DNA from: Calothrix sp. PCC 7716
Lineage (GTDB): Bacteria > Cyanobacteriota > Cyanobacteriia > Cyanobacteriales > Nostocaceae
Assembly (NCBI RefSeq): GCF_019977735.1
Contig: NZ_AP025018.1
Coordinates: 992,001 to 1,056,000, forward strand
Reading direction: 5' to 3'
DNA length: 64,000 bases
Part shown: piece by piece, positions 7,111 through 37,763 of the stretch
Position numbering within the stretch: the first letter of the stretch is position 1
How the letters are laid out: every line of letters begins with the position of its first letter
The notes under the pieces: generated by a model
Databases searched by the model: none
Told to the model about the DNA's origin: nothing
Seen by the model: only the letters and a program-made list of their open reading frames with translations
Program-made: the position numbers and the translations under genes

Positions 7111-7246
7111 TATAGTAATTTACTTTAGCATGAATAGTGAATACACCCAATCAGGTGAATAGTAAAGACCCTAGTGGGTGTATCAACTTAGGAACTTAGA
7201 AATTCAGTTACAAGTCTGCATATACAAAACTATTCATTTGTGAACT

Positions 7247-8346: not shown

Positions 8347-8453
8347 TTTTGCGTAGATTTTGAGTTACAATTTATAGTTATAATACGTTGATATATCATA
8401 CCTGAAGGAGTGACATAATTCTTCTGAAGCTTTTAAATACTAAGTATGAAATC

Positions 8454-8930
8454 CTAAAAACTTTCTTCTAAACATTGTACGAGTTTCGGCGCCAGTGTTG
8501 CAGCCCAACCGATGGCTATATCATCTCCTGTTTTATAGAATGGTGCGGCAGGTAGGTGTCCAGTGGGAGCTTGTAAGTTAAATTGAAGTTGGGGGTATCG
8601 TTGCCAGTTACCTGAGTGGCGCCATCCTACCGTATTGCTAAATTTCATGTAGTCTTGTTGTGTATTATCCCAAACCCGACTTTGCACGGTAAAGCCAAAA
8701 CGTTCGTTACTGTAGTAAGTCCATAAGTAATCTATAGTATCTAGGTCACTACAGGGAAAACTAGTAAAATCTTCTTCTCTAAGCCATCCTGCATCTACAC
8801 GTCGTGATATTTTTAACATTACCGCTCTTGTTTCTTCGTCTGCTTGGCGCCACATTTTCGATGCTAGTAATTTGGCTAGGTTATCGTAACTTACACCTAC
8901 CTCGCTAATTAATTGATGTGTAATGCCCAT
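8454..8930 (-). CDS. GUN4 domain protein
   Basis: A 158-residue protein made almost wholly of a GUN4 domain. It has LAKLLASKMWRQADEETRAVML, then GWLREEDFTSFPCSDLDTID, LWTYYS, RFGFTVQSRVW and finally GHLPAAPF. GUN4 binds porphyrins and in its canonical form stimulates magnesium chelatase. Many cyanobacterial GUN4 domains are instead fused to kinases or proteases with unclear roles. Here it is free-standing but starts only 2 bases after the stop of an upstream 98-residue gene, so the two are translationally coupled. It may be a paralogue rather than the housekeeping Gun4. Confidence 0.85.
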   Translation of the reverse strand: MGITHQLISEVGVSYDNLAKLLASKMWRQADEETRAVMLKISRRVDAGWLREEDFTSFPCSDLDTIDYLWTYYSNERFGFTVQSRVWDNTQQDYMKFSNTVGWRHSGNWQRYPQLQFNLQAPTGHLPAAPFYKTGDDIAIGWAATLAPKLVQCLEESF

Positions 8931-8932
8931 AT

Positions 8933-9229
8933 CTATAATTTTTGGTTTCCTTGGTTAGGATACTCGCGCGTTGGTAGTAGTCCCCATGCTTCTGCGTCTG
9001 CTCCCCAGTTACGAAATATTTTTTGTCTGGCAAAAGCATTGGCAAAGCGCCAATTGTATATTCGCTTCCATGCGCTTGACCATTGCGCTGTTTCGTCTGC
9101 TGCTTGAAGCGCGCGTATTTCTGCTTCTAGTGCGTTGCTGTGCTTTTGCATTATGGCTTCGATGTCTCGGAAGTGGTCGTCTGGTTGCCGCATGGAATAA
9201 GTTTTTGTGTTGATAGTTAGGGACTTCAA
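8933..9229 (-). CDS. 98-aa protein coupled to GUN4 gene, unknown function
   Basis: A soluble, helical protein rich in Ala, Arg, Gln and Trp. The central part (about residues 20-75) looks like a pair of helices, with WSSAWKRIYNWRFANAF in the second. No family is recognised. An internal ATG at codon 13 is an alternative start. The stop codon is 2 bases before the GUN4 start, which argues for joint translation and a shared process. It could also be the remnant N-terminal part of a once-fused GUN4 protein. Confidence 0.5.
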   Translation of the reverse strand: MKSLTINTKTYSMRQPDDHFRDIEAIMQKHSNALEAEIRALQAADETAQWSSAWKRIYNWRFANAFARQKIFRNWGADAEAWGLLPTREYPNQGNQKL

Positions 9230-9250
9230 AATAAAATATCTCTAAAATTT

Positions 9251-9365
9251 TCTTGTGGGGTGGGCATCCTTGCCCGCCTCAGAACTGGAACGGGCAGGGA
9301 TGCCCATTCCACAATTGCTGGATGCCCATTCCACAATTGCTGGTTGCCATTCCACAATTGCTGGT
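9251..9365. repeat. CTTGTGG/GGGCATCC repeat with 22-base tandem copies
   Basis: The left part (9251-9308) holds the inverted elements GGGCATCCTTGCCCGCC and CGGGCAGGGATGCCC of a dispersed family also seen at 24247-24315, 54085-54139 and 62417-62443. The right end continues into three tandem copies of a unit TGCCCATTCCACAATTGCTGG at 9301-9322, 9323-9344 and 9345-9365 (the last is one base shorter). The rest of the 9230-9783 gap holds AT-rich DNA, two GGCGCC-type sites and presumably the promoter of the downstream transporter. No gene is seen there. Confidence 0.8.
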
Positions 9366-9783
9366 GAATTAAGTTTTTGGAAATCCCTTACTAAATATAA
9401 CTTGCTGTACAGGCGCCGGAGTTCATCCTTTTGTTGATAAAATTGTAAACTTATTTATAGGGGTAAAGCCTGAGAGGGTTTGTAAGCTAGCAAACATTAT
9501 TTTATATCCAGTAAGTTTTTATAATCTCACTTTTTGGTTGTGAAACCTATAGTTAATAAGCTTTACAGCGCTTTTTATGACTATGGTTCATTTGAAATAC
9601 TGGTATTAATTATTTATCAGTAAAGAAATTAATGAATATTTAATGATTTTTTTTTATCAGAAAAAATATGGTATGTTGCCAAAATTGGATTTATTGTTTG
9701 GGCTTTATCTGACACAATAGTTCCATAAAACTACGAACGAATAACTGCTTACTCTTCCACAACAGACCAGAGGTGTAGAACTA

Positions 9784-11892
9784 ATGGGTCAGTCTGAGAA
9801 CAATATAAATGTAAATCACCGAGAAAATAACTCGGCGCCACAATTAGATGCTTCGCTCGAAGCTTCGATAAACGCACAGAAGACTGTGCAAAAATTAACT
9901 GATGAGCTAATCGTTCTTCAATCAAACGTTCTCAACTCTTTGCAGGAAGATGTGAAGCGTCTAGTTGAGGAAAAGCGTCAGCTAACTGATGATGTCCAAA
10001 AGCTCTCTGTACAAAAGAATAATTTACAGTCCTCGCAAATTGAACAGCAGCAACAGGTATTAATTCGACAACTAGTACAAGTTCTTGCCAACCACGTCTC
10101 TGTACAATTGCAGTCGTCGTTAGAGCAGTTGTTTGAGTCGGCTATAGTGCGTGTGTCAAAGAATAATACTATACAACCGTATACTGAAACACAAATTACC
10201 GCGAATCCTGATTCTGATGTTGATAATTTAATAACTTCGCTCAAAGCTGCGGTTACAAGTACCTTTGAAGAACTACAAAGTGAGTTAAAAAATTACCAAA
10301 GCAGTTTTTCGGTGCAGCTTTCCCGGATGTATAGCGAACAAGAACAAGGTGAAGCTATTTTAGCTGAGTTAGTGTACCGTCTCCGCAACGAACTTGAGTC
10401 GGCGCCTCAAAATGTCGATAATAAAGTCGAGGAGTTTGCCTCGGTTGAATTATCTGAAGCACTTGAAAACCCCGAAACTGCCGAATTTTACACTCTTAAT
10501 AATATAGATATAAATGCACCTGAGAGCCAATTAGAAACTCAACGTACAAATGAACCACATCGTAATCATCCTAATACTGTTATTCCTAACCCTGTAACGC
10601 GCGCTCAAGTTGAAGCTTCCTTAGAACCTGTTGAAAATACAGAGTTTGTCGAATCACAACCCCAAGAATCTGTAGAAAGAGTCAAATTATTGAGACCTCA
10701 AGAATCTTCACTACCTGGAACTTCTGTTGTTGAAACAATTGTACCTACGCCAATTCCAACTCCAAGTATACGTCGAAGACGTGTTGAAGCTAGAAGACCA
10801 CAGACCCCACCTGAAGTGGAAGTGAACAGTCGAGAACTTCCGACTTCGATAAAAGCTGGGTTTATACTGATTATGCTATCGGTTGTTGCTTCTGCGCTGT
10901 ATAACGTTTCTGTGAAAGCGATGTTCTTCCAAAAATCGCAAATTTTTGGAGTTTTTGATGTCCAGCAGCTTATCGTTCCAACCCTTGGTAATTGTTTTTT
11001 AATTTTGATGCTGCGAATGTTGGTGGTTGTACCGCTAATGTTGGTAATGGCGCCTATTATGCATCAAGGTATTTGGAATGATATTAGAGGTTTGGTAGAT
11101 TCATTACGTAATAATAAGGGTTATGCACCCAATGCTACACCAATGCCACGGGCAATTACTAAGCAAGTGTTGGTGCTATCGCTGATTAGTGGATTTTTCT
11201 TGTTTTTATCTCAGGTGCTAATTTACTTGGCTATTGGTCAAGTTGCCACGGGTGTCGCAATTTCGCTTTTCTTTATTTACCCTGTCATTAGTGGTTTCTT
11301 TGGCTGGTTAATATTTAAGAACGACCGTGAACGTCCTACTTTGTCACGGGTTAGCGCTATTGCTTGTATTTGCTTTGGTCAGTTACTTGTTTTAGGTTCT
11401 AATACGTCGAACCCAAATATATCGTTCGGAAGTACTGCTGCGATTGTTTCGGGTGTGACTTTTGCTATTTATATTGTCTTAACTCGTATTTGTGCTGCAC
11501 GCTTACATCCTGTTTCGTTTACTTTGCTTAACTTTACTACGATGTTGCTGCTATGCTTTGTGGCTTTAATTATTCCGCTACCCGCTAATATCGGTGTACA
11601 AGTTAATAACACCAATTTTCTTGAACTTATTCTCAGCGCTTTTATTTTAGGTGTGTTAACCTTAGCTGGATACGTGCTTAACAACCTTGGTATCCGTAAA
11701 TTTGGCGCCATCCGCTCTGCGCTCATTGGCGCCTGTGTCCCAGCTTTGACGGTGCTTTTCGCCGGGTTGATAATTCAAGAAAACTTGGAATTAATTCAAG
11801 TTATAGGCGTTTTAGTTGTGACAGTCGGCGCCGCTGCTTTCAACTTAGAGAAAATACGTAATCGCTCTAGAAGTTCCAGAACTACCGCTTAA
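9784..11892 (+). CDS. EamA/DMT-family transporter with long coiled-coil N-terminal extension
   Basis: A 702-residue protein in two parts. Residues 1-350 are hydrophilic. A heptad-patterned region (about 25-110, e.g. VQKLTDELIVLQSNVLNSLQ) is followed by an acidic, Pro- and Glu-rich linker and a basic stretch (IRRRRVEARRP). Residues 355-690 contain ten hydrophobic segments in two halves, as in drug/metabolite transporters of the EamA type, which are normally about 300 residues long. Substrate and direction are unknown. The large cytoplasmic extension is unusual and could serve oligomerisation or docking. The gene stands alone, with gaps of over 500 bases on both sides. Confidence 0.8.
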   Translation: MGQSENNINVNHRENNSAPQLDASLEASINAQKTVQKLTDELIVLQSNVLNSLQEDVKRLVEEKRQLTDDVQKLSVQKNNLQSSQIEQQQQVLIRQLVQVLANHVSVQLQSSLEQLFESAIVRVSKNNTIQPYTETQITANPDSDVDNLITSLKAAVTSTFEELQSELKNYQSSFSVQLSRMYSEQEQGEAILAELVYRLRNELESAPQNVDNKVEEFASVELSEALENPETAEFYTLNNIDINAPESQLETQRTNEPHRNHPNTVIPNPVTRAQVEASLEPVENTEFVESQPQESVERVKLLRPQESSLPGTSVVETIVPTPIPTPSIRRRRVEARRPQTPPEVEVNSRELPTSIKAGFILIMLSVVASALYNVSVKAMFFQKSQIFGVFDVQQLIVPTLGNCFLILMLRMLVVVPLMLVMAPIMHQGIWNDIRGLVDSLRNNKGYAPNATPMPRAITKQVLVLSLISGFFLFLSQVLIYLAIGQVATGVAISLFFIYPVISGFFGWLIFKNDRERPTLSRVSAIACICFGQLLVLGSNTSNPNISFGSTAAIVSGVTFAIYIVLTRICAARLHPVSFTLLNFTTMLLLCFVALIIPLPANIGVQVNNTNFLELILSAFILGVLTLAGYVLNNLGIRKFGAIRSALIGACVPALTVLFAGLIIQENLELIQVIGVLVVTVGAAAFNLEKIRNRSRSSRTTA

Positions 11893-12149
11893 AATCAATG
11901 AATATCATTATCAGGATGACTATGTATCTATTAGGACAATATTTTTGGTGTTGGTAATGGTAGTATTCATGCAAACTTTAAATAAAACCGTTATTTGTGT
12001 AATCGGTGACATGTACTGTGTACCTTAAGTTTACACGAGCGATTTTTATTTGAATAAAGTAAAAATTATTATATCAAGCGTGCCACTAAGGAGTACTCTA
12101 GATGCCAGAAGATGTTTTGTAAAAAAAATATCATCTGGTACTGTTACCA

Positions 12150-12172
12150 ATTTTCGCTCGTTAGACGAAAAT
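12150..12172. promoter_or_regulatory. hairpin in the hetR upstream region
   Basis: ATTTTCG 12150-12156 pairs perfectly with CGAAAAT 12166-12172 around a nine-base loop. The stem continues with CCA/TGG after a one-base bulge. An upstream partial pairing of CCAGAAGATG (12105-12114) with CATCTGG (12132-12138) is also possible. The element lies 320 bases before hetR, in a region that in other heterocystous strains holds several hetR transcription starts. A regulatory or terminator role is inferred only. Confidence 0.35.
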
Positions 12173-12191
12173 CTGGTGTAAAAGAGTATTT

Positions 12192-12368
12192 GTGGATGTA
12201 GTTATAATAGTTTCACCCATAAATACCCCTGAAGACAGAGTGATTTTAGCCAAAAGCTTTGCTCATAAAGTCTTGAAGGAAATCACAACTGAGGAAAGGA
12301 GTTTTATATATTTACCAGAAAATACGGATGAAAAGTTGATTAAGACTACCAATAATACCGAGATTTGA
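12192..12368 (+). CDS. possible 58-aa protein upstream of hetR
   Basis: A GTG at 12192 opens 58 codons ending at TGA 12366-12368. The product starts VDVVIIVSPINTPEDRVILA and has a normal, mildly amphipathic composition without low complexity. No Shine-Dalgarno is obvious before the GTG, and the frame has no other start nearby after the upstream TAG. It may be a small gene, a remnant of a longer one, or chance. It lies 120 bases before hetR on the same strand. The rest of the 11893-12488 gap holds the hairpin above and probably the hetR promoters. Confidence 0.25.
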   Translation: MDVVIIVSPINTPEDRVILAKSFAHKVLKEITTEERSFIYLPENTDEKLIKTTNNTEI

Positions 12369-12449
12369 AGCATAATGGATTATCTAAGATTATCGTTCAT
12401 TGAACACATTGCTTCCGACTCGGGTGTATACTACTTACTTTCGATCTAA

Positions 12450-13388
<939 letters not shown>

Positions 13389-13456
13389 TATTTAATTCCA
13401 ACAAGATTGGTATTAGTTTTTCTAATAAAAATACTAATTAATAAGAATCCATGTCG

Positions 13457-13476
13457 AATCCACCATTTGGTGGATT
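13457..13476 (+). terminator. hairpin after hetR
   Basis: AATCCACC 13457-13464 pairs perfectly with GGTGGATT 13469-13476 around an ATTT loop, 69 bases after the hetR stop. A T-rich tract follows only about 20 bases later, so it may act as a terminator or as a 3' stability element. Confidence 0.5.
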
Positions 13477-13531
13477 TGTCAATGGGATTGTAATTTTTTA
13501 GTCTAAATTATTTTATTAACTTATAAATGAA

Positions 13532-14617
13532 TCATTCTGGTGCAGAATCGGTTGTCAACATCGAGGGTGCATCTCCCTCAACTGCATTAGTTTTATCGAC
13601 CCATCCTTTTAAAGCATCATTAATTACACCCGCAACAGGGACGGCAATTAGTAGTCCTAATAATCCACCAACGTAAGTACCAACAAGTAGCGAAGTTAAT
13701 ACCCATATTGGACGTAAACCAGTAAAACTACCTAAAAGACGAGGTGCCACAGCTTGGTCGATTAATTGGTCGATGACAATAGAAACAGCTAATACTCTTG
13801 CTGCCAACCAAATATCATGGGATGCAATAATTAAGGTGATAACCGCAAGGCTAACTACATCACCAAACGGGATTAAGCTTAAAATACCTATTCCTAAACC
13901 GAACACCAAACCAAACGGAACTTGTAGAACAAGAAATACCACTGTTAGCGATACTCCCATCAACACAGCTAAAGCGACTTGCCCGATTAAATAGTTTCGG
14001 AAATTTTGCTGAAATGATTCCTGTAATTTGACAGCAAAGCTAGTTGGCAATTTTTTAAATATCCCATCCCAAATACGGGCGCCGTCACTCAAAAGGTAAA
14101 ATGTAAACACGACGGTCACCAAAGCTTCAGAAACACTATCAATAGCTTCAACTGCAAAAGTAAAAAGTCGGTTGCCAAAAAATTCTACCTCCGAAGGAAA
14201 TTTATCGGTTAATTCTGTGGCAATTCGGCTAAAATCTACATCGAACCCACGATTTGCTGCCCAAGTATTTGCAGCTAGTAACTTTTGCTGTCCAGAGTCT
14301 ATCCATTCTGGAATGACTTTTGTCATTTCGTTAAACTGTTCATAACCTAGCGGTAGTATAGTCACACCTAGGGTAAATATAAGTAACAAAGCAGAAATAA
14401 ATACGATTCCAACAGCATACCCACGTTTGACACCACGACCATGAAGTATTGATACCGGAAAGTTTAATATAAACGCCAGTAGTGAAGCTAGTACAATTGT
14501 TGTAATTATCGGTTTAAAATAATCGAAAACGCGAAAAGCTAACCACCCATTCAAAAACACTAACGGAAACAGCAGCGTGATTATCAATAATTGTACTAGT
14601 CGATTCAGCGAATTCAT
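13532..14617 (-). CDS. AI-2E family transporter (PerM/UPF0118)
   Basis: A 361-residue membrane protein with about seven to eight hydrophobic segments. It has the family pattern: three segments near the N-terminus (residues 5-80), a soluble stretch (about 95-160), then a second membrane block with QVPFGLVFGLGIGILSLIPFGD and IDQLIDQAVAPRLLG. The latter is the conserved signature of this family. Members export small molecules or ions; the name comes from E. coli TqsA and the substrate here is unknown. It converges on hetR but shares no obvious pathway with it. Confidence 0.88.
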   Translation of the reverse strand: MNSLNRLVQLLIITLLFPLVFLNGWLAFRVFDYFKPIITTIVLASLLAFILNFPVSILHGRGVKRGYAVGIVFISALLLIFTLGVTILPLGYEQFNEMTKVIPEWIDSGQQKLLAANTWAANRGFDVDFSRIATELTDKFPSEVEFFGNRLFTFAVEAIDSVSEALVTVVFTFYLLSDGARIWDGIFKKLPTSFAVKLQESFQQNFRNYLIGQVALAVLMGVSLTVVFLVLQVPFGLVFGLGIGILSLIPFGDVVSLAVITLIIASHDIWLAARVLAVSIVIDQLIDQAVAPRLLGSFTGLRPIWVLTSLLVGTYVGGLLGLLIAVPVAGVINDALKGWVDKTNAVEGDAPSMLTTDSAPE

Positions 14618-16199: not shown

Positions 16200-16394
16200 T
16201 CAAGTTCTACTATTCGTCAAACTCGCATTTTCTCTATCGATTTGATAATTATCTTTGAGCAATCGTATGTAAGTACGGTAAGGAATATAATGCAAGGGGT
16301 CATACCCATTAAAACGTAGGATAAGAACACAAGCCCAAGAGTACTTACCAGCGATAATTGCCTTGATAACTTCTTCAATCTGCTTTTTATTCAT
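16200..16394 (-). CDS. HetP family heterocyst-commitment protein
   Basis: A 64-residue protein. The core, residues 12-48, reads [20 protein letters not shown] followed by [15 protein letters not shown], the hallmark of HetP and its short paralogues (Asl1930, Alr2902 and Alr3234 in Anabaena 7120). HetP acts after HetR to commit cells to heterocyst fate; the paralogues modulate timing. This copy has only about 15 residues after the core, so it resembles the short paralogues rather than HetP itself, and no paralogue can be assigned. A triple 11-base-spaced repeat lies about 120 bases upstream. HetR is encoded 2.8 kb away. Confidence 0.8.
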
Positions 16395-28690: not shown

Positions 28691-29029
28691 TTACCTGTTT
28701 GGTCGATCAATAGCTCTAATTTTAACAATCTCCAAATCATAGTTTTTTCCCTCTCGTGAAATAGTTTTGACCTTAACTTTATCAAAGCCATCAAGAGCAT
28801 AATAAACATCAGCTGTAGGGTCTTCACCAATTGCAAGAGCTGTTCCTGTACCCTTTAGTCTAGTAACACCGTTCTTTTTAGTATTGAGTACAAGGTCTGT
28901 ATCAGTGAGAGCTAAAGAATTATTTCCCTTAGCGGATGCATTCGCTTCTATCACCGCACTGGCGCCACCTAGTATTAACTTGTTTTCATAAGTATTTCCT
29001 AAGTAGGATAAATCGTTGATTTGCATCAT
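28691..29029 (-). CDS. candidate exported peptide precursor 6 (double-Gly leader)
   Basis: A 112-residue small protein, last of the precursor series. From the second Met the leader reads MQINDLSYLGNTYENKLILG, with G at the next position, giving a Gly-Gly end before ASAVIEANASAKG. This matches the D-L-x-Y-L...GG leader of the neighbouring genes. The predicted core is 90 residues, rich in Ala, Lys, Asp and Thr, with no Cys. The C39 peptidase of the ABC exporter at 34454-37555 is the likely processing enzyme. What the released protein does is unknown. Confidence 0.65.
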   Translation of the reverse strand: MMQINDLSYLGNTYENKLILGGASAVIEANASAKGNNSLALTDTDLVLNTKKNGVTRLKGTGTALAIGEDPTADVYYALDGFDKVKVKTISREGKNYDLEIVKIRAIDRPNR

Positions 29030-29134
29030 GAATCGGTTTTTTGAATTAACTAAAGTTTACGGATTGACAAAATATCCAATATTTTAATTATCAGTACAAG
29101 ATGTGGTAGAAGCTAAAGCCTCGACCATGTAATA

Positions 29135-29479
29135 TCAGCCCTTTTCTGGGGGCAAATCTATTGCAATTACAAGACCAAGGGCAATAGCAGTGTTTTTGGA
29201 AACCAAGTATTTAAAATTATCTATACTAATTACAAGATCACCTGCGCCTGCAACTGCTACGCTAGCTGCAGAATTATTACCATTCGCGATAGCTACTCCT
29301 GTACCTATTGCAATGGCACCACCATTTTGTAGTTTTTTGGCAAAAGTGTCTGTAAATACATAGGTTTTGGGTGAAGACCCTGTAGCTAATGCGTTAGCTG
29401 CGACAATAGCTCTAGCAGAACCTAAAGTCAAATCGCTTTCTGAGATATTATCGAGATAAGACAAATCTACAATCTGCAT
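29135..29479 (-). CDS. candidate exported peptide precursor 5 (Gly-Ser leader)
   Basis: The likely start is the ATG at 29479 (MQIVDLSYLDNISESDLTLG); the frame opens five codons earlier. The leader is clearly of the same family, but the usual GG is Gly-Ser before ARAIVAANALATG. C39 peptidases usually tolerate GA and GS less well than GG. The core after cleavage is about 93 residues, very rich in Ala, Gly, Val and Asn (SVAVAGAGDLVISID). Its first residues (A-x-A-I-V-A-A-N-A) resemble those of precursor 6, so the two cores are related. Confidence 0.6.
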   Translation of the reverse strand: MQIVDLSYLDNISESDLTLGSARAIVAANALATGSSPKTYVFTDTFAKKLQNGGAIAIGTGVAIANGNNSAASVAVAGAGDLVISIDNFKYLVSKNTAIALGLVIAIDLPPEKG

Positions 29480-29586
29480 AGTTAAGGAACACACATTTTT
29501 AAGTAAAGCTAACTAAAATTAATCAACTAAGTTTACGTATGTGATGCTTGAGAAGTTATGTTTCGTGTCTACAAGATTAATTCGCC

Positions 29587-29784
29587 TTAATTGGTAGAAG
29601 AAACCGAAACATAGCCAGATTGAGAAGAGCGACTCGAATTACCATCAGATGAAACATTAACCGATATGTCCTGGCTAATCTCAGTTTGACCATTACCAGA
29701 TGCTTTAGCAACACTTTTGACTTCAGCAACAACCTTGCCATCTGGTGAGACTATTCTTTTAACTACAACTTCATGACGTTCCAT
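29587..29784 (-). CDS. leaderless small protein within the precursor series
   Basis: A 65-residue protein: a basic strand region (RHEVVVKRIVSPDGKVVAEV), then a Ser/Asn/Gly-rich tail with SSDGNSSRSSQSG. It lacks the D-L-x-Y-L leader and a GG site, so it is probably not processed by the C39 peptidase. Short SPDGKVxAE proteins with a Ser-rich tail are common in cyanobacteria, often near export genes, but I know no function. It could be a substrate of another kind or an immunity or chaperone factor. Confidence 0.5.
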   Translation of the reverse strand: MERHEVVVKRIVSPDGKVVAEVKSVAKASGNGQTEISQDISVNVSSDGNSSRSSQSGYVSVSSTN

Positions 29785-29961
29785 AATTTTACTGTCTTGT
29801 ATTGTTGGTTAATTTGAATTTTAAATTTTGAATTGTTAAGTAGTTACGCAAAATTAAGTATATATTTTTTCTATAAGCCCTATTGAATACTGAATACAGA
29901 ATTCAGGAGTATATAATTTATTTCGCACAAGTACTTATGCTCAAAAAGAATACGATGCAGT

Positions 29962-30300
29962 TCAAGATGCTGTAACTTGGATTAAAGATTTTGTGCTTGC
30001 AAAATTTGGGCTAGTTAGTACAAGTGTTTGAGATTTGCCGTCTAGACTTGAAATAAGATACCCAGACTCTCCAGTAGGTTCACTATCTAACTTAGAAACA
30101 GCATACCCTGAGTCAGAATAAACTTCTTTATGAGTATATTGTTCTAATGACGGTTCTAATGTGTTAGGAAAAAGCCTCGTAAATAACAAGTTTAAGTTTG
30201 GTTCTGCAATACTCAATGCTAAATTGAGTCCACCTTTGACCTCAGATTCCTCTGTTGTCTGTTGGCAAAAACTCAAATCAGATATTTTCAGTCTGCACAT
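29962..30300 (-). CDS. candidate exported peptide precursor 4 (repeat core)
   Basis: The start at 30300 is favoured by the ribosome site AAGG seven bases before the ATG; the frame is open 15 codons further. The leader is MCRLKISDLSFCQQTTEESE, then VKGG and the core LNLALSI. The leader is two residues longer before DL than in the other genes and has Phe-Cys where the others have Tyr-Leu. The core is about 88 residues and holds an imperfect internal repeat: SDSGYAVSKLDSEPTGESGY, then LISSLDGKS. The core differs completely from those of the other precursors. Confidence 0.6.
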   Translation of the reverse strand: MCRLKISDLSFCQQTTEESEVKGGLNLALSIAEPNLNLLFTRLFPNTLEPSLEQYTHKEVYSDSGYAVSKLDSEPTGESGYLISSLDGKSQTLVLTSPNFASTKSLIQVTAS

Positions 30301-30407
30301 AGTAAACCTTGCTGTACTATCAGCTAAGTTGACATATATCAACAAAAATGTTTGGCACCTACAGAAAAGAGTATTTGCAGGGTGCCTGTATACATTACTA
30401 GTCGGGA

Positions 30408-30677
30408 TTAATCAGAAGAAACAAAAGAAGCAGAAGAAGCAGAAACCGCAATTGAAGTATCTCCACCTGATGCGGTAGCAGCAGCCATAACAGAACTACG
30501 AGCTTTAGAATAACGAGGGTTACTAACTGCTAAATTCTTTAGAAAAGTAACCACACTGGTTGAACTGCCATAAGCTTGCGTCGAAAAACCAGAAATGGCT
30601 AGAGCGCTACCACCATTTACATGCATAGAACATGTTTCAGAGATGGAGTCCAAATAATCGATATCAGAAATTATCAT
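30408..30677 (-). CDS. candidate exported peptide precursor 3 (double-Gly leader)
   Basis: An 89-residue precursor. The leader is MIISDIDYLDSISETCSMHV followed by NGG. A GAAGG ribosome site precedes the ATG at 30677. The core starts SALAISGFSTQAYG and is about 66 residues, rich in Ser, Ala, Val and Thr (AVSASSASFVSSD at the end), with no Cys. Like the other members it has the D-I/L-x-Y-L motif near the N-terminus and a GG before the core. Low-complexity cores of this kind suit surface or adhesive proteins as well as bacteriocins. Confidence 0.65.
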   Translation of the reverse strand: MIISDIDYLDSISETCSMHVNGGSALAISGFSTQAYGSSTSVVTFLKNLAVSNPRYSKARSSVMAAATASGGDTSIAVSASSASFVSSD

Positions 30678-30746
30678 CTATAAGCCTTCGTCCGTGCTAT
30701 TAGCGCACGTTCATCTAAAAGTTTACTAGTGAATACCGTAACTCAA

Positions 30747-30803
30747 AACTCTCTTTTAGAAAAGGGAGTTTCAAATAGTTGCTCTGTTGAGAGCAACTAT
30801 TTG
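30747..30803. terminator. two hairpins between precursor genes
   Basis: CAAATAGTTGCTCT 30772-30785 pairs perfectly over 14 bases with 30790-30803 around a GTTG loop. Next to it AAACTCTCTTTT (from about 30747) pairs with AAAAGGGAGTTT with one G-T pair. Two strong hairpins in a row between precursors 2 and 3 suggest attenuation, processing or mRNA stabilisation within the series. Confidence 0.6.
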
Positions 30804-30835
30804 AGTTTCGCTGAAGCTAGGCAGACCGAATACTA

Positions 30836-31168
30836 TTAGTTAGCAGCAGCAACGAAAAGTCCACTTTGGCTAGAACCTTTTCCAGCAACAGCAAGCTGAT
30901 TTAATTCACCTTGAGTATTGCTGTCTTTACCTACGGCTTCATTCTCGAAAGCAAAAGTTGACGAATTGCCTTTAACATTGGAGTCAACTTTAATGTTTGC
31001 TTTCTTATTGAAATCAGCTTTTATGTTACTATCGAAGTTGAAGTCTATGTCGGATTTAATTTTTGTATCCAAGTCTTTTTTGAATTTAAAACTGTCCAAA
31101 TAGCCACCACCAACAATCTCAATTTCTTGGCTGACAGCTTCCAAGTAGTTTAAATCAGAAATAATCAT
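30836..31168 (-). CDS. candidate exported peptide precursor 2 (110 aa, duplicate)
   Basis: Leader MIISDLNYLEAVSQEIEIVG followed by G, then core GYLDSFKFKKDLD. A ribosome site AGGGAGA precedes the ATG. The core of about 89 residues has an alternating Asp/Lys/Asn pattern (SDIDFNFDSNIKADF, KKANIKVDSNVKGNS) and ends QSGLFVAAAN. It has no Cys. The gene differs from the copy at 31341-31673 at four bases that I count, three of them silent. The fourth gives Ser4 here against Ala4 there, inside the leader. Confidence 0.7.
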   Translation of the reverse strand: MIISDLNYLEAVSQEIEIVGGGYLDSFKFKKDLDTKIKSDIDFNFDSNIKADFNKKANIKVDSNVKGNSSTFAFENEAVGKDSNTQGELNQLAVAGKGSSQSGLFVAAAN

Positions 31169-31340
31169 CTATTTTCTCCCTAATTCATTGGGTTTGTGTG
31201 GAATTTGATAATCTCAGTACTGCTCGGTTAAGAATAAGAGCGTGATTCTTATCTAAGCAGTATTGAAAATCAAGTTTGCTCTAAGAATTGCTTCATTTGA
31301 AACAATTCTTGGAATTCACTTAAAGCTAGACCGGATACTA

Positions 31341-31673
31341 TTAATTAGCAGCAGCAACAAAAAGTCCACTTTGGCTAGAACCTTTTCCAGCAACAGCAAG
31401 TTGATTTAATTCACCTTGAGTATTGCTGTCTTTACCTACAGCTTCATTCTCGAAAGCAAAAGTTGACGAATTGCCTTTAACATTGGAGTCAACTTTAATG
31501 TTTGCTTTCTTATTGAAATCAGCTTTTATGTTACTATCGAAGTTGAAGTCTATGTCGGATTTAATTTTTGTATCCAAGTCTTTTTTGAATTTAAAACTGT
31601 CCAAATAGCCACCACCAACAATCTCAATTTCTTGGCTGACAGCTTCCAAGTAGTTTAAATCAGCAATAATCAT
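31341..31673 (-). CDS. candidate exported peptide precursor 1 (110 aa, duplicate)
   Basis: First of the series in the direction of transcription. The leader is MIIADLNYLEAVSQEIEIVG plus G, with the ribosome site AGGAGA before the ATG at 31673. The mature part is identical to that of precursor 2. The spacer between the two copies (31169-31340) holds a nested inverted repeat (CAGTACTGCT...AGCAGTATTG around AAGAAT/ATTCTT) and a second hairpin (AAGAATTG...CAATTCTT). Duplication with a preserved core suggests that dosage of this product matters, or that the copying is very recent. Confidence 0.7.
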   Translation of the reverse strand: MIIADLNYLEAVSQEIEIVGGGYLDSFKFKKDLDTKIKSDIDFNFDSNIKADFNKKANIKVDSNVKGNSSTFAFENEAVGKDSNTQGELNQLAVAGKGSSQSGLFVAAAN

Positions 31674-32026
31674 CTATTTTCTCCTGGGAATTACTAGCTA
31701 AAATTGAAGAATAATCGTTACAAGCAAAATCTTATATTGCTTGAACTTTTTACGAGCAGTTTTTCTTGCTCTTAATTTCTAATATAGCTAATTATTTGGA
31801 TAAGTCAATACTTTTTTGAATAATTTTTCATAGAATTTATCAATCAAAAAACACGAAAGTATTGTTGTCTAATTGATGTATTTAAATAAAAAATTAGCAA
31901 AGCAAAATAGGAACAATAATCATGTCATTGTCCAATTATTAAATAATGATTTTTTATTTTTATTGAAATCTTTTATTACGTTCTAAAAAGCAATATTTTA
32001 ATTAAATATTCAAGCTTAAAATTTAA
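31674..32026. other. intergenic region between PpiC gene and precursor series
   Basis: A 353-base AT-rich gap with no gene on either strand. It separates the transport/foldase genes from the precursor genes on the same strand and so probably holds a separate promoter for the precursors. Confidence 0.5.
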
Positions 32027-32806
32027 CTAAGCCATCTGAGGAATTTGTTCTTTAGCAAGTAAACTTGTATTTTCAGGTTGAATAAGTATTTCCAAAGCCT
32101 GTATTTGTTGCTTTAACCAATCTGAAAATAAGTCTAAAATAATTTTTTGACGTAACTCATCATTCAACTCCGGTTGAATGATTTCTTCCACCCAAATCAA
32201 ATGTATTCCCTTTGGAGTTGTAATCGGTTTAAGAATGGACGGTGCAGAAGCAGCAAATAGAGGCGCCGCAATTTCTGGACGAAATTCTTTACGATGCCGA
32301 AGTCCTTGATATCCACCTGCGCGCCTTCTTTCTGGTTCTTGAATAAATTGGCGAGCAATTTCAGCAAAAGTAATTTCGCCTTCTTCTATGGCATAAAAAA
32401 ATTCTAGGGCTAAGTCTCTATCCTCAAAAACGACTTCATAGGTTGCTGCTTTATCGTAATCGAGTCGGCGTTCGTAAAAGTACTTTTCTACATAAGGCGA
32501 AAACATGTGATTTGCTAACTTCCGAGAAAGAGCCTTATAGTGGACTAACTCTTCAAATTCCTTTACAGAGAGATGATGCTTTTCCAGCCATGACCAGGTA
32601 TCTTTAGCTTTTACAAGTTTTTTTTCTAACCGCAGTTTGTCACCCTCTTGTTGTATTTCATCTGGAGTAACTTCAACACCAGATTCCCACGCGACTTCAG
32701 TAATAATTCTTTTAGATGCTATGGCTTCTAAAACATCAGGGATTTGACAGGATAATTTTATATTATTAATGATGTCTGGAATAGAAATGGTAAGAATTTC
32801 TGACAT
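32027..32806 (-). CDS. PpiC-type peptidylprolyl isomerase of the export cluster
   Basis: A 259-residue protein with a SurA-like helical N-terminal region (about 1-105) and a parvulin-type PpiC domain (about 110-215). The latter is seen in ITFAEIARQFIQEPERRRAG, GYQGLRHRKEF and ITTPKGIHLIWVEEI. There is no signal peptide, so it should act in the cytoplasm, perhaps keeping precursors in an export-competent form. PpiC or SurA-like genes often accompany C39 exporter and HlyD genes in cyanobacterial bacteriocin-type clusters. It lies 43 bases after the HlyD gene. Confidence 0.85.
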   Translation of the reverse strand: MSEILTISIPDIINNIKLSCQIPDVLEAIASKRIITEVAWESGVEVTPDEIQQEGDKLRLEKKLVKAKDTWSWLEKHHLSVKEFEELVHYKALSRKLANHMFSPYVEKYFYERRLDYDKAATYEVVFEDRDLALEFFYAIEEGEITFAEIARQFIQEPERRRAGGYQGLRHRKEFRPEIAAPLFAASAPSILKPITTPKGIHLIWVEEIIQPELNDELRQKIILDLFSDWLKQQIQALEILIQPENTSLLAKEQIPQMA

Positions 32807-32849
32807 AACGTAATTCCTCTAATAAATTTGTGATTCGTTCTTCGCAATG

Positions 32850-34391
32850 CTACATTTCCAAACCTCCTTTTTGTAGCTTCTTGAATGGGTCTAAAACAAA
32901 ATCAATCACGCGACGCTGACGAATGATGACTTCAGCAGTTGCAGTCTGACCTGCGGTTAATGGAATGCGTTTATTACCGTTTTGGACATACTGCTGTTCT
33001 AAGGCAATTTCTAAGTCATAGGTTTCAATAGTTCCTCCAGGCGCCTGAATCACTTTTGAGTCGGGAGAAATTCGTGCGACTTTGCCAGGTACTATTCCAT
33101 AATCCTGGAATGGATAAGCATCAAACTTGATTTTCACTGGCATTCCTACTTTCAAAAAGCCGCTATCTTGACTTGGCATACTCGCTTTAAGTATGTAAGC
33201 TACATTTTTTGGTGCAATTTGAGCAACTCTTTGACCGGGTTGTACGACTGTTCCGGGTTTGCTAAATGGCAATTCAAAAATGATTCCGTTAACGGGAGAC
33301 CTAACTATTCTTTGCTGTAACTGAAGCTTCAACGATGTCATTTGGCTAGCAGTTTGAGCAATAGCTGATTGATTTGCTGTAATTTGCGCTTGTAAGTCTT
33401 TGAGTTGTTGTTCATTTTTCAAAACAGCAAGCTTGCCATTTTTTTGCAAACTACTATAGCTGTCCTGCACTTCTTGCAATCGAAGGAAAGCCTGTTTAAT
33501 GTCAGACTCAAGCTGCCTAACTGTTGTTTGATAGCGACTTTTCTCTTCACCTAAGCGTAATTGTGCTTGTTTAAAATCAGATAAACTTTTTTGATAGATG
33601 CGCTTACTTTCTTGTGCTTCTTTTTTGAGTTGGTCAATCTGCATCGCTGAAACGGCACCATCTTTGACCAGATTATTAAAACGTTCGACTTGTTTTGAAT
33701 CAATACTCAAGCGGTTCTTAGATGCTTCTTGGTCATTAAGAGTGACCATTATCTGCTGCTCTACTTGATTAACTAATGCTTGTTTCTCTAGCTTTTGTAG
33801 GTTATATGTACTTTGTTTTGCATCAAGATTTTGCTTTGCTTGATTGATTTGGGAAAGTTTTTCTGATTCTTGGGATTTATTCTGCTGTTGGGTAACGTTG
33901 ATTGTCAATTGTATTTGATTCTTGAGAATATGGAGTTGCGCTCGCTGATTTTGCAGTCCAGACAGCTTTGCCTCTGTCTCTTCAATTTGGGTTCGCAGGA
34001 TTTCTGAATCTAATTCCAACAGCACCTGCCCAGCTAGTACGTTTTCACCTTCCTTGACTTTGACCGCTTTGACAGTTCCACCAACTTCAGAATCCAATTT
34101 TTGCGTAGCACCTTTGGGTTCTACTCGTCCTCTGGCACTTCCTGTCTCATCTACTTTGGAGTACATTGACCAAGGTAAGAATAAAACACCAAAGCCTAGT
34201 AAGACGTACAGTAAACTGCGCGTCCAAACTCTTGGTAATGCATCGAGTAATTCTTCACTACCGTGGAATAAATCTTTACTATCATCAAATGTTTCTACTG
34301 GGTCACGAATTGGATAATTGTCTGCGTGCATATCACTTTGATACTGGTCGTGTTCCTCTTGAATAAGAGGATATTGAGATGGTTGAGACAT
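32850..34391 (-). CDS. HlyD-family membrane fusion protein
   Basis: A 513-residue periplasmic adaptor. A single membrane segment lies at about residues 58-78 (LLYVLLGFGVLFLPW). A lipoyl/barrel half-motif follows (VDETGSARGRVEPKG, GGTVKAVKVKEGENVLAGQV), then a long coiled-coil hairpin (about 135-375). The second half of the lipoyl motif (RIVRSPVNGIIFEL, KPGTVVQPGQ) and the C-terminal beta-barrel complete it. It should link the inner-membrane ABC exporter to an outer-membrane TolC-type channel, which is not encoded here. It lies between the exporter and the PpiC gene with short gaps. Confidence 0.92.
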   Translation of the reverse strand: MSQPSQYPLIQEEHDQYQSDMHADNYPIRDPVETFDDSKDLFHGSEELLDALPRVWTRSLLYVLLGFGVLFLPWSMYSKVDETGSARGRVEPKGATQKLDSEVGGTVKAVKVKEGENVLAGQVLLELDSEILRTQIEETEAKLSGLQNQRAQLHILKNQIQLTINVTQQQNKSQESEKLSQINQAKQNLDAKQSTYNLQKLEKQALVNQVEQQIMVTLNDQEASKNRLSIDSKQVERFNNLVKDGAVSAMQIDQLKKEAQESKRIYQKSLSDFKQAQLRLGEEKSRYQTTVRQLESDIKQAFLRLQEVQDSYSSLQKNGKLAVLKNEQQLKDLQAQITANQSAIAQTASQMTSLKLQLQQRIVRSPVNGIIFELPFSKPGTVVQPGQRVAQIAPKNVAYILKASMPSQDSGFLKVGMPVKIKFDAYPFQDYGIVPGKVARISPDSKVIQAPGGTIETYDLEIALEQQYVQNGNKRIPLTAGQTATAEVIIRQRRVIDFVLDPFKKLQKGGLEM

Positions 34392-34453
34392 AATTCGAGG
34401 TGTGAAGTATGTGAAATATTAGTAAGAACGGAGGGTTCAGGCGCCTTTTTGAG

Positions 34454-37400
34454 CTACCCGGCTTGGGCTAATTGTTGTTGGTTGAGGTAGTAATAATGAC
34501 CTTTTTTGGCAATTAATTCATCGTGAGTACCGCTTTCTACGAGTACACCGTGGTCTAATACTAAGATTAGGTCTGCGTTACGGACGGTAGAGAGACGATG
34601 GGCGATGATTATGCTGGTACGTCCTTTAAGAATAGTTTTGAAATTATTTTGAATAATGCGTTCTGATTCCGCGTCGAGGTGACTGGTTGCTTCGTCCAAT
34701 AGTATTAAGCGAGGATTGCCAAGCAATGCGCGTGCAATTGCCAGACGTTGACGTTGTCCACCAGACAGCATCCCCCCACCTTCACCGATTTGAGTTTCAT
34801 AACCTAGTGGCTGTTTTTGAATAAATTCATCAGCACCTGCCAAAGAAGCTGCTTTAACTATTTCTTCTAAAGATGCTTCTGGATGAGCTATGGCAATATT
34901 TTCGCGAATCGTACCACCAAACAAAAACGTGTCTTGGTCTACAACTCCAACTTGAGAACGGAGCGATTTCAAAGATATATGGTTAACATCATATCCATCA
35001 ATGGTAACTTTGCCATCAGTCGCAGGGTATAAACCTAAAATTAATTTACCTAATGTTGTTTTGCCAGAACCACTGCGTCCGACCAAAGCCACGATTTGTT
35101 CAGGCTTAATTTCAAAATTGAGGTTTTCTAGGACATTAGTATCACTTTCTTTGTGATAGCGGAAAGTAACGTTATGAAAGCCAATCTTGCCTTTTAACCG
35201 ACCTAATGATTTACGAGGCTTATTTTGTAAGTCTTCTTCTGGTTCTGCTTCTAGAACATCATTAAGACGTTCGACGGAAATAAAAATTTCTTGAAAATGA
35301 TTCCATAGTACAGAAAATCGTTGCAATGGACCTAAGACATTACCAATTAACATATTGAACGCCACTAATTGTCCAAGGGTGAGTTCACCGTTAATTACCT
35401 GCCATGCGCCAAACCACATTATTCCTGTACTTACAAACGTTTCGATGACACCACTAATTACAGATAATCGGATGCCAAGGACTTCAGCCGAGAAAGATTT
35501 TTTGACTACATTATTTAGTAGTTCTTCCCAACGCCAACGTACTGTTTGCTCAATTGCTAACGAACGGATAGTACGGATTCCTGTTAGGGATTCTATCAGG
35601 TAGCTATTTTCTTCGGCGCCTGCATTAAATATCTCTCTCGAAATCCGGCGCAAAATACTCGTACTAGCCAGTGCCAGTATGAAAAATGGCGGCACCGTTA
35701 ACAGCACAAATAACGTCATCTTCCAGCTATAAGACAACATTACGCCCAAATAGACAAAAAATGAGAGTAAATCGAGCATGATTGATAGAGTCTCACCAGT
35801 CAAGAAAGCTTGGATTTTCTGGTTTTCTTGGATACGAGAGACAATATCTCCGACGTAACGCGACTCGAAATAAGACAGGGGTAAGCGGAAAGTATGTTTG
35901 ATAAAACCTATAACTAAAGCAAGGCTGACGCGCGTAGCCGTATGGTCTAGCAGATACGTCCGTACTGCGTTCATGGCAATGCGGAACAATCCAAATAAAA
36001 TCATCCCCAAACCAATGGCGTTTAAGGTGCTAACACTGCGTTGCACAAGCACTCGGTCGAGTAGCAACTGGGTAAATACTGGCGTTATCAACCCAAATAT
36101 TTGCATCAATACCGAAGCGATGAAGATTTCAAATAATACCTTGTAATGGGGTTTAACTAATTCAAAAAACTTCCACAGCCCAGTACTATCGTCCTTGGCG
36201 TTTTTTAGGGCAGTCGTGGGTTGCAGTAACAACGCATACCCTGTCCAATCTTTTTGAAATTCCTTTGGTGTGAGAATACGTTGTCCAACGGCAGGGTCGC
36301 CGACAATTACCCGTTTTTTGGTAATTTCATAAACAACAATAAAATGTTTGCCCTCCCAATGGGCAATTGCTGGAAGTGGCTGTTCTGCTAATTTGTCGAG
36401 AGTTGCTTTGACTGGACGTGTCGCAAAACCTAAGCTTTCGGCAACGTTGGCAACCGCGCGTAGAGAGGCGCCACTGCGGTTGGCATTTGTCATATCCCGC
36501 AACCGATTGATACTAAAGCGCTTACCCCAATAGTTACCAATCATTACCAAACAAGCGGCGCCGCAATCAGAGGCGCTGTGTTGGGCATAAAAAGGATATT
36601 GTCGGGTCAATCGTCCCCACCAATGTCCCATTGCCACCTTGGGACTGGGAAAATAAGGGCGCGATTTTTTTGGCTTTTGTTGAGTTGAATGATAGCTTTG
36701 CGGAAAGGGAATTACCTTTTGATGAAGAGAACTAGTATCTCTAACACTTTCTGTTTCTATAATATTTGCTGCTGCTGACCTTCTTTTGCGTGGCTTTTGT
36801 TGAGAGAAAACAGGTTTATCATCGGGCGCCCCAAATTGTGCTAATTCATAACAGTGTTCAAGTGCTGTTTGGTAATCGCTATTTTTCAGAGCATATACAG
36901 TTGTTGGTTGTTCTATGAGCCAATAACCTTGTTTTGGATTGGTACAAATTTTACCTGGCGTTTGGGAAGTTCCGTTGCTATGCTGAAGATGCCCAACCCG
37001 TATCATCAGCATGTTGCAATCAGTAAAGACCTGCTTTGTCTCTGATGCGGTAATATCAAGTCGCTCGAACAGCGATAAAGCTTCAAGCATTCCTGGCGCC
37101 AGTGATGGAGAGTTGGGAAAATTAGAGTTTTGACGGCATAAGAGTATTAAATCCCAAATTTCTGCTTGTTTATAAAGCTTGTCGCGAACTTCAGGATACT
37201 GTGTCATCAACGGTTGCAACGTCTCTAAACTGAGGTAACATACCCTCAAGTTATGCGAAGCTCTCGCTACATACGAACTAAATTCGTCTTCATTAAAAAG
37301 AGTTGCCTCTCCAAATGATGCTCCTTCTGACAAAGTTGTTATTAAATTCTCCAAGTCGTCTAAAAGTCTAACTCTACCTGCAAGGACAATATAAATACCT

Positions 37401-37555
37401 CTTTCAGCATCTCTTAACTGCCAAAACTGCGTTGCCAGTGGCAGTTCCAAGATTTGAGATGCTTGTAAACAACTTTGCAATTCTTTTTGTGTAAGGCTTT
37501 CACCTAATACTTTAGGAATTATTAAACTTAGTTCTTCATGGAATCGCATCATCAA
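34454..37555 (-). CDS. cNMP-binding / peptidase C39 / ABC exporter (PCAT), HetC-like architecture
   Basis: A 1033-residue fused exporter. Residues about 15-145 form a cyclic-nucleotide-binding-type domain (QLRDAERGIYIVLAGRVRLL, GASFGEATLFNED). Residues about 315-440 are a peptidase C39 domain with an apparently complete triad: Cys331 (SASDCGAACL), His404 (GKHFIVVY) and Asp420 (GDPAVG). A six-helix transmembrane domain (about 480-755) and an ATPase domain follow, with GRSGSGKTTLGK, LSGGQRQRLAIARALL and LILLDEATSHLDAES. It should cleave after GG leaders while exporting. Heterocyst protein HetC has the same order of domains and similar length. The HlyD, PpiC and precursor genes downstream make peptide export the likelier role here. 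Confidence 0.92.
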   Translation of the reverse strand: MMMRFHEELSLIIPKVLGESLTQKELQSCLQASQILELPLATQFWQLRDAERGIYIVLAGRVRLLDDLENLITTLSEGASFGEATLFNEDEFSSYVARASHNLRVCYLSLETLQPLMTQYPEVRDKLYKQAEIWDLILLCRQNSNFPNSPSLAPGMLEALSLFERLDITASETKQVFTDCNMLMIRVGHLQHSNGTSQTPGKICTNPKQGYWLIEQPTTVYALKNSDYQTALEHCYELAQFGAPDDKPVFSQQKPRKRRSAAANIIETESVRDTSSLHQKVIPFPQSYHSTQQKPKKSRPYFPSPKVAMGHWWGRLTRQYPFYAQHSASDCGAACLVMIGNYWGKRFSINRLRDMTNANRSGASLRAVANVAESLGFATRPVKATLDKLAEQPLPAIAHWEGKHFIVVYEITKKRVIVGDPAVGQRILTPKEFQKDWTGYALLLQPTTALKNAKDDSTGLWKFFELVKPHYKVLFEIFIASVLMQIFGLITPVFTQLLLDRVLVQRSVSTLNAIGLGMILFGLFRIAMNAVRTYLLDHTATRVSLALVIGFIKHTFRLPLSYFESRYVGDIVSRIQENQKIQAFLTGETLSIMLDLLSFFVYLGVMLSYSWKMTLFVLLTVPPFFILALASTSILRRISREIFNAGAEENSYLIESLTGIRTIRSLAIEQTVRWRWEELLNNVVKKSFSAEVLGIRLSVISGVIETFVSTGIMWFGAWQVINGELTLGQLVAFNMLIGNVLGPLQRFSVLWNHFQEIFISVERLNDVLEAEPEEDLQNKPRKSLGRLKGKIGFHNVTFRYHKESDTNVLENLNFEIKPEQIVALVGRSGSGKTTLGKLILGLYPATDGKVTIDGYDVNHISLKSLRSQVGVVDQDTFLFGGTIRENIAIAHPEASLEEIVKAASLAGADEFIQKQPLGYETQIGEGGGMLSGGQRQRLAIARALLGNPRLILLDEATSHLDAESERIIQNNFKTILKGRTSIIIAHRLSTVRNADLILVLDHGVLVESGTHDELIAKKGHYYYLNQQQLAQAG

Positions 37556-37589
37556 GACCCCCTCAAGTCACCTTTTAACATGAATCCAA

Positions 37590-37763
37590 CTATTTGATAG
37601 CCACAAGTATACTTATGTCAGCTATACCTTCACGCGCGTTCAGATTGGTAGTAACTTGTGTGGGGAAAGTCTTTAAAAAGCTACTGTAGTTACCTTGATA
37701 ACTCTGGCAACCGCCAAAAAATATAAAGCTTGGAACTTGTTGTATTACGAGCTTTCGTGACAT
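37590..37763 (-). CDS. possible 57-aa peptide just upstream of the exporter gene
   Basis: An ATG at 37763 opens 57 codons to TAG 37590-37592, ending 34 bases before the exporter start. The product has a Gly-Gly at residues 17-18 after a hydrophobic stretch (VPSFIFFGG), then CQSYQGNYSSFLKTFP. It lacks the D-L-x-Y-L motif of the other precursors and has no clear ribosome site, so it may be a chance frame. If real, it would be a distinct leader-peptide substrate or a short regulatory peptide. Confidence 0.22.
   Translation of the reverse strand: MSRKLVIQQVPSFIFFGGCQSYQGNYSSFLKTFPTQVTTNLNAREGIADISILVAIK

Follow-up and report, generated by a model that had tools for sequence, protein, structure and literature searches.

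NHLP and Nif11 (N11P) precursors carry double-glycine leaders and are exported by transporters with a C39 peptidase. In cyanobacteria, 145 C39 clusters have been catalogued as bacteriocin clusters, with 0.35 precursors per cluster in group I, the largest group, and 3.78 in group II (Wang 2011; PMC3140520). The accessible part of that paper lists HetP-like proteins with a KIXDLXYLEX10GG motif as possible precursors and adds that the motif in HetP is perhaps attributable to an M16 peptidase; a 2015 paper (PMC4558948) repeats the statement on HetP-like proteins. The protease-exporter HetC is required for heterocysts, and Rachedi 2024 (PMC10986499), as far as its accessible sections go, reports no leader-bearing gene near hetC, asks whether derivatives of PatS/HetN or HetP are exported, proposes a model where the substrate is divided, with one portion retained and the other leaving, and names the identification of the HetC substrate as the next crucial step. 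In Synechococcus elongatus, EbfG4 is found on the cell surface and in the matrix, and EbfG1-3 form amyloid (PMC4997328, PMC9981879). Here we describe a cassette at positions 28691 to 37763 of a 64,000-nucleotide stretch (the window) of the 12.37-Mb genome of Calothrix sp. PCC 7716. Its leader profile links one exporter superclade to recurrent small-protein families, and the same profile marks HetP as the prime candidate cargo of HetC.

The gene content, the gene order and the minus-strand orientation of the cassette are those described in a first-pass annotation of this DNA: a C39 ATP-binding cassette (ABC) exporter, an HlyD-type protein, a PpiC-type protein and seven small genes (P1 to P7), in that order. 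The features are as follows, in window positions.

34454 to 37555, minus strand: long-type C39 peptidase-containing ABC exporter (PCAT), matching Pfam PF03412, PF00664, PF00005 and PF00027 above their cut-offs
32850 to 34391, minus strand: HlyD-type membrane fusion protein (TIGR01843, 236.7 bits; cut-off, 208.65)
32027 to 32806, minus strand: PpiC/SurA-like peptidyl-prolyl isomerase-type protein, 259 amino acids (Rotamase PF00639, 33.5 bits; cut-off, 21.7)
31341 to 31673, minus strand: P1, small protein with leader MIIADLNYLEAVSQEIEIVGG, recognized by the leader motif; core family 0
30836 to 31168, minus strand: P2, near-identical duplicate of P1 (99% identity); family 0
30408 to 30677, minus strand: P3, leader MIISDIDYLDSISETCSMHVNGG, Ser/Ala-rich core; family 3 by core clustering
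29962 to 30300, minus strand: P4, leader MCRLKISDLSFCQQTTEESEVKGG, preferred ATG start at 30300; family 1
29587 to 29784, minus strand: P5, 65 amino acids, leaderless, C-terminal half Ser/Asn-rich; supported by tblastn homologs
29135 to 29479, minus strand: P6, leader MQIVDLSYLDNISESDLTLGS, GS instead of GG; family 2 by core clustering
28691 to 29029, minus strand: P7, leader (M)MQINDLSYLGNTYENKLILGG, C-terminal motif AID(L/R/K)P; family 2 by clustering and homology to P6

Six of the seven small open reading frames (ORFs) carry a DL-x-(Y/F)-(L/C)...GG/GS leader, with GG (GS in P6) after 21 to 24 residues. The M-x-I-x-D start given for all six in the first-pass annotation is found as written in five; in P4, for which the ATG at 30300 is the most likely start and which reads M-C-R-L-K-I-S-D-L-S-F-C, three extra residues precede the motif. 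A loose motif search of the whole window returned these six and one match elsewhere, at 44743, with an 11-residue core. Among 79 loci drawn in by exporter similarity, a strict motif (ATG start and G[GSA]) identified 96 ORFs in 53 loci, 93 of them on the strand of the exporter, and the strict reversed motif identified none. One of the 96, in locus L109, is a HetP tail and was excluded from the hidden Markov model (HMM) of the leader, which was built from 72 unique small-ORF leaders and used with a threshold of 8.5 bits. Two of the 79 loci, L111 and L112, are chance ABC matches in Lactobacillus, and both are absent from the profile counts, which cover 77 relative loci. The HMM retrieved 154 leader ORFs in 79 sources (the 77 relative loci, the paralogous locus L134 and the window), a count that is not independent, since the training leaders come from the same loci; the controls based on the motif and on DNA patterns are independent. 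In the 77 relative loci, 136 of 142 leader ORFs were on the strand of the exporter and 124 lay at most 9 kb downstream. Among the 67 loci whose downstream DNA extends for 6 kb or more, 62 had at least one leader ORF (mean of 2.0).

We also searched the class for a DNA pattern encoding MIIxDLNxLE, which matched at 23 places, spread over 17 of the 289 genomes, with no match for the backwards control in the genomes listed; an earlier pattern was dropped as too loose (164 matches versus 205 for its backwards control). Seventeen genomes is a lower bound, because the pattern catches one leader subtype only. An exporter at E ≤ 1e−250 was present in 13 of these 17 genomes, versus 52 of the 272 without the pattern (P = 1.5e−6), and the other 4 had an exporter at E ≤ 1e−130, in a looser search confined to 8 genomes. 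Nineteen of the 23 sites lie at most 10 kb downstream of a related exporter on the same strand (positions compared by eye). The first-pass annotation had named leaders without an exporter as the observation that would speak against it, and all 17 genomes with this strict leader hold a related exporter.

The same leader is found inside HetP. There it is internal to the tail behind the HetP domain, with GG and some 36 further residues after it. In a set of 86 HetP ORFs from 55 of the 147 genomes of the order, 35 carry the motif with GG, GS or GA in the tail, and none carries the reversed motif. The HMM of small-ORF leaders reached at least 8.5 bits in 29 of these 86 tails and in none of 4,284 shuffled or reversed decoys (maximum, 8.1), as well as in 52 of 58 HetP tails beside an intact HetC. 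Of the 35 leader-bearing HetP, 29 had a C39 exporter no more than 7.5 kb away on their strand, versus 17 of the 51 others (P = 7e−6). Outside the family of the window, a looser motif gave 28 of 33 leader-bearing versus 13 of 28 leaderless HetP with an exporter (P = 0.002), and all 28 exporter-linked leader-bearing HetP also had an HlyD gene on the same strand in the stretch examined. In an alignment made free of any pattern, with one row for each of 28 genera with intact HetC, the leader stands out as a conserved island: the mean frequency of the commonest residue is 0.90, versus 0.54 before it and 0.55 after it, and the two glycines have frequencies of 1.00 and 0.93. The window itself encodes a short HetP-family protein of 64 amino acids (16200 to 16394, minus strand), which stops shortly past its HetP domain and lacks a leader tail.

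The HetP tail is co-inherited with HetC. In the family set, a HetP ortholog was found in 118 of 119 genomes, and the C39 exporter upstream of it was intact in 58, broken in 7, absent within approximately 5.4 to 6.5 kb in 50 and unknown in 3. A full tail, defined by a pattern written after viewing the tails as the leader, G[GA] and at least 15 residues, was present in 52 of the 58 genomes with intact HetC, 3 of the 7 with a broken one, 4 of the 50 without and 2 of the 3 unknown (intact versus absent, P = 5e−19, ignoring relatedness). When each of 54 genera was represented by its majority state (one tie), the tail was full in 26 of 27 genera with HetC versus 2 of 26 without (P = 1e−11, again ignoring relatedness). 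Seventeen path-disjoint pairs differing in HetC, taken from a tree built on the HetP domain plus linker, with broken HetC scored as not intact, gave 10 pairs in agreement, 0 opposed and 7 tied (P = 0.001). The leader HMM alone gave a weaker contrast (52 of 58 intact versus 23 of 50 absent), because many tails without HetC retain the leader and lose the GG or the peptide. The end point of HetP, which needs no rule on GG, shows the same: 56 of the 58 proteins beside an intact HetC extend at least 15 residues beyond the presumed cut site, mostly 36, and in the absence of HetC 36 of 50 stop at most 12 residues from it, many of these being close relatives that share the ending. The remaining 14 end at least 15 residues past the site (7), 13 past it (1) or earlier (2), or have no leader start (4).

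Of the intact HetC, 23 of 58 were assigned from listed match positions and 2 are cut by the contig end; 5 of the 50 genomes scored as absent (G149, G174, G185, G197 and G245) carry a HetC-like match elsewhere, at E ≤ 1e−230. Ten intact HetC rows escaped the motif used for the catalytic Cys, and the Cys was present in all six of them that were re-examined. Genome reduction alone is insufficient to explain the joint loss of HetC and of the HetP tail, since large genomes are among those without an adjacent HetC (G226, 10.1 Mb; G180, 9.6 Mb; G149, 8.8 Mb; G185, 9.5 Mb), G149 and G185 being two of those with a HetC-like match elsewhere.

We consider it reasonably likely that the leader is the recognition code of an exporter superclade that includes HetC, and that HetP is the substrate long sought for HetC. 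HetC would cut HetP after K-I-K-D-L-A-Y-L-E-V-V-G-K-Q-K-x-E-I-R-G-G; the shortened HetP would remain in the (pro)heterocyst and the peptide of about 36 residues would be exported. Lineages that lost HetC mostly end HetP near the site, as though fixing the pre-cut form. HetC and HetP would then represent an ancient leader-export cassette, with exporter, HlyD and leader-bearing HetP standing together in relatives outside the family, co-opted for cell differentiation. This architecture matches the split-substrate model of Rachedi 2024, and the compensation of a peptidase-deleted hetC by an over-expressed hetP-GFP (green fluorescent protein) fusion, reported in the accessible part of a 2014 study (PMC4133259), fits HetP acting downstream of HetC. 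Cleavage itself is predicted from the similarity of the leaders and from the co-inheritance of the tail with HetC. We found no statement of HetP as a HetC substrate in the literature covered, most subscription journals and preprints being outside its scope.

The tail could instead be a motif by which HetP docks on HetC without being cut, which we regard as unlikely. Uncut docking would suit four genomes of one genus (g101) in which HetC is intact, RGRG replaces RGG and the tail is kept, and also the retention of HetP-GFP in the heterocyst cytoplasm, where the accessible text describes a similar location in the hetC-p background (PMC4133259). These observations weigh against cleavage. Exceptions to the co-inheritance also include two genomes of genus g115 that have HetC (one of them with a stop) and a HetP ending 4 residues past the site, and G088, G160, G192 and G224, which retain the tail with no adjacent HetC. 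Docking alone does not fit the near-invariant pair of glycines in the genera with intact HetC, the ending of HetP near the presumed cut site in most genomes lacking HetC or the protease activity of HetC, which has been measured and is required for heterocysts (PMC10986499). A leader code common to the window cassette and to HetC/HetP is the wider result, and it deserves a test at the bench.

A tree of 56 C39 exporters places the window exporter in a clade with a Shimodaira-Hasegawa-like approximate likelihood ratio test (SH-aLRT) support of 100, which adjoins a clade (100) of HetC and other exporters neighboring hetP. Midpoint rooting joins the two clades with a support of 94, with the caveat that meeting long branches were flagged, two rows of the HetC clade among them. 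The tree thus excludes that the window exporter is HetC; the HetC of this genome lies at C1:4590440-4593484. We scanned 20 stretches around 18 of the 37 other exporter matches in the genome. Real-looking small leader ORFs were found by motif only at L134 (4) and L138 (3), and the profile (at least 8.5 bits) gave 6 and 2 in these loci and none in the other stretches; both have long-type exporters. The motif also matched in L147, with a core of 2 residues.

L138 is a second HetC-like cluster (positions 6773 to 14158 of the locus), with an exporter, HlyD, a HetP with an internal leader, three small leader ORFs and a PpiC-type gene. L139 holds hetC and hetP of this genome and a downstream PpiC-type gene. 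Between hetC and hetP in L139 (9426 to 9860) we observed a 144-amino-acid ORF resembling a shrunken HlyD. Its N-terminal anchor is similar to the HlyD of L138 (E = 2e−7, two-sequence search), and tblastn relatives occur in 21 of the 58 loci with intact HetC, many of which have little upstream DNA; a membrane fusion gene near hetC is reported as absent in the accessible parts of two studies (PMC10986499, PMC4133259). Beside the window-type paralogous cluster of L134 (12234 to 15140), there is a GG-leader protein with KYPSD repeats, along with two proteins judged ATP-grasp-like by eye. We take these presumably to be reminiscent of a microviridin-type graspetide set.

Window-type and hetP systems are often tandem neighbors: hetP lies 2 to 6.5 kb upstream of a window-type exporter and shares its strand in 13 of the 77 relative loci (L043, L061, L069, L074, L077, L081, L084, L086, L097, L099, L102, L107 and L108), 63 of the 77 having at least 6 kb of upstream DNA. 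A C39 ORF upstream of hetP and a long HetP tail occur together in L043, L061, L069, L074, L097, L099 and L107, with RGRG in L061, L074 and L107. A degraded HetP tail and no C39 ORF upstream of hetP are seen in L077, L081, L084, L102 and L108, despite a window-type exporter 2.5 to 3.4 kb away, suggesting that the latter is no substitute for HetC. The two systems are not interchangeable, which counts against the view that the exported window cores are intercellular signals of the filament and not structural proteins. The role of the sister exporter HetC in cell differentiation (PMC10986499, in the part accessible) and the co-inheritance of HetC with the HetP tail speak for signals; five different cores of 66 to 93 residues next to one exporter, Ala/Ser/Asn-rich or beta-rich, would be an odd form for them, and we regard this explanation as very unlikely.

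The 154 cores cluster into families of 73, 26, 23, 8, 3, 2, 2 and 2 members and 15 singletons. Family 0 (P1/P2) has 73 members in 58 loci, including the window and L134; the other window families, all counted with the window, are family 1 (P4; 26 members, 24 loci), family 2 (P6/P7; 23 members, 20 loci) and family 3 (P3; 8 members, 8 loci). The cores had been called unrelated except in pairs, which holds within the locus, where only P1/P2 and P6/P7 (33% identity between cores) are homologous; each of them recurs as a family elsewhere. One exporter class with several unrelated cores behind one leader, as the first-pass annotation had proposed, is thus supported. We found no description of these families in the literature, in a comparison that did not extend to the precursor tables of Wang 2011, and some of the cores may belong to the unnamed "other" precursors of that work.

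P1 and P2 arose by recent tandem duplication and are 99% identical, with a ratio of nonsynonymous to synonymous substitution rates (dN/dS) of 0.06; their core proteins are identical, with silent differences only. The small genes are under constraint (dN/dS of 0.20 to 0.89 in eleven ortholog pairs). Between the window and L035, the exporter is 98% identical (dN/dS = 0.08, dS = 0.11), and the cores are 48% (P2), 67% (P3), 49% (P4) and 86% (P6) identical, with whole-gene dN/dS of 0.29, 0.51, 0.59 and 0.41, respectively. The leaders are better conserved than the cores (82 to 100%). For P2, dS is 1.08, far above that of the exporter, which points to allele replacement and not to point change alone.

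Such rapid divergence of the cores also fits proteins of competition or kin recognition, and the cluster class was named for bacteriocins by Wang 2011. Antimicrobial or kin-recognition cores of a bacteriocin-like type are nevertheless rather unlikely in our judgment. The six leader-bearing window cores have no Cys, as the first-pass annotation had noted in calling them Cys-poor, and 150 of the 154 cores have 0 or 1; searches of NCBIfam and Pfam up to E = 1 gave no match to a bacteriocin family, immunity genes not having been searched for. The one studied case has a role in biofilms (PMC4997328, in the part accessible).

The cores had also been described as mostly low-complexity, and this wording does not hold for P7, whose core AlphaFold2 models as a well-folded all-beta protein from 15 sequences (predicted local distance difference test score [pLDDT] of 95, predicted template modeling score of 0.81), with four strands of 27, 25, 10 and 12 residues. 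P6 is homologous to it, so that family 2, at least, appears folded and no low-complexity filler. Neither a resemblance of the family 2 profile to fatty-acid-binding proteins (E = 0.0028) nor a likeness of the P7 fold to SecB (Foldseek probability of 0.66, template modeling score of 0.37) was accepted, both being weak.

Taken together, the cassette is quite probably a type I secretion system directed by the leader, which exports the leader-bearing small cores, likely to the matrix or sheath. Cutting, export and destination of the cores are predicted here from the families to which the genes belong. The C39 domain of the exporter would recognize the leader I-x-D-L-x-Y/F-L/C ... GG or GS and cut behind the second small residue, and the core would pass through the ABC exporter and HlyD to the outside, with a TolC-type channel assumed to be encoded elsewhere. 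The PpiC-type protein probably aids the handling or folding of the cores, and the cyclic nucleotide (cNMP)-like domain probably gates the exporter. Small, Cys-free and in part clearly beta-rich, the cores would end up outside the cell or on its surface, most likely as constituents of matrix or sheath by analogy with EbfG. The sister exporter HetC would use the same leader code, its likely substrate being the C-terminal tail of HetP.

In addition to the divergence of the cores, several observations count against export of the cores to the matrix or against so tight a tie between leader and exporter. No leader ORF was found in 5 of the 67 relative loci with enough downstream DNA. Two of the 23 class-wide sites are opposite in strand to the nearby exporter and 2 are near none. 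The exporters of L136 and L137, of the same clade as that of the window, have no leader ORF in the 20 kb covered, by motif or profile, and in the scan of the genome a looser reversed motif gave 2 matches versus 11 forward rows (three ORFs counted twice). The P1/P2 core has no confident model (AlphaFold2, pLDDT of 52, 38 sequences) and the P7 fold has no confident structural relative in PDB or BFVD, so the matrix role is assigned by analogy. The observation from which this work started is confirmed, and its interpretation is supported in part.

The PpiC-type protein has tblastn homologs in 74 of 82 loci; it reaches 65.6 bits against TIGR04500 ("peptide maturation"), under the cut-off of 180. 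P5 has tblastn homologs in 28 of the 82 loci, mostly across its N-terminal half (VVVKRIVSPDGKVVAEVKS), the C-terminal half being variable. None of the seven small proteins reaches a cut-off in NCBIfam or Pfam, and the matches below cut-off (GroES, halocyanin, CsgH, PilA and others) were dismissed as chance. Above the exporter (37590 to 37763), the sole ORF encodes 57 amino acids and is unsupported. Among named relatives, the exporter is closest to those of Calothrix sp. FI2-JRJ7 (98%) and Dulcicalothrix desertica (85%).

Compared with known systems, the window cassette is of a known kind, the cluster class of Wang 2011, in the description of which a near-identical motif was already reported for HetP-like proteins. 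Clusters of groups I and II combine a long-type C39 exporter carrying CAP_ED with HlyD, SurA/rotamase and small GG precursors nearby, and all of these are found in the window. Its exporter has Peptidase_C39, ABC_membrane, ABC_tran and N-terminal cNMP_binding domains, all above the Pfam cut-off; the N-terminal stretch ahead of C39 is about 310 residues long. What the window adds to that class is six leader genes beside one exporter, recurrent core families and a motif tied to the C39 exporter. The NHLP and Nif11 leader models of NCBIfam, searched up to E = 1, matched none of the seven small proteins. EbfG1-4 with PteB resembles the window, by description and not by compared sequences, in the use of one C39 exporter for several small GG-motif proteins (PMC4997328, PMC9981879, in their accessible parts). 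HetC shares with the window exporter a cNMP-type domain and C39, a neighboring clade and a PpiC-type gene downstream (L139). The HetC locus differs in having no full HlyD and in carrying its leader inside HetP instead of at the N terminus of a small protein, whereas the leader code in HetP is the same as in the window leaders.

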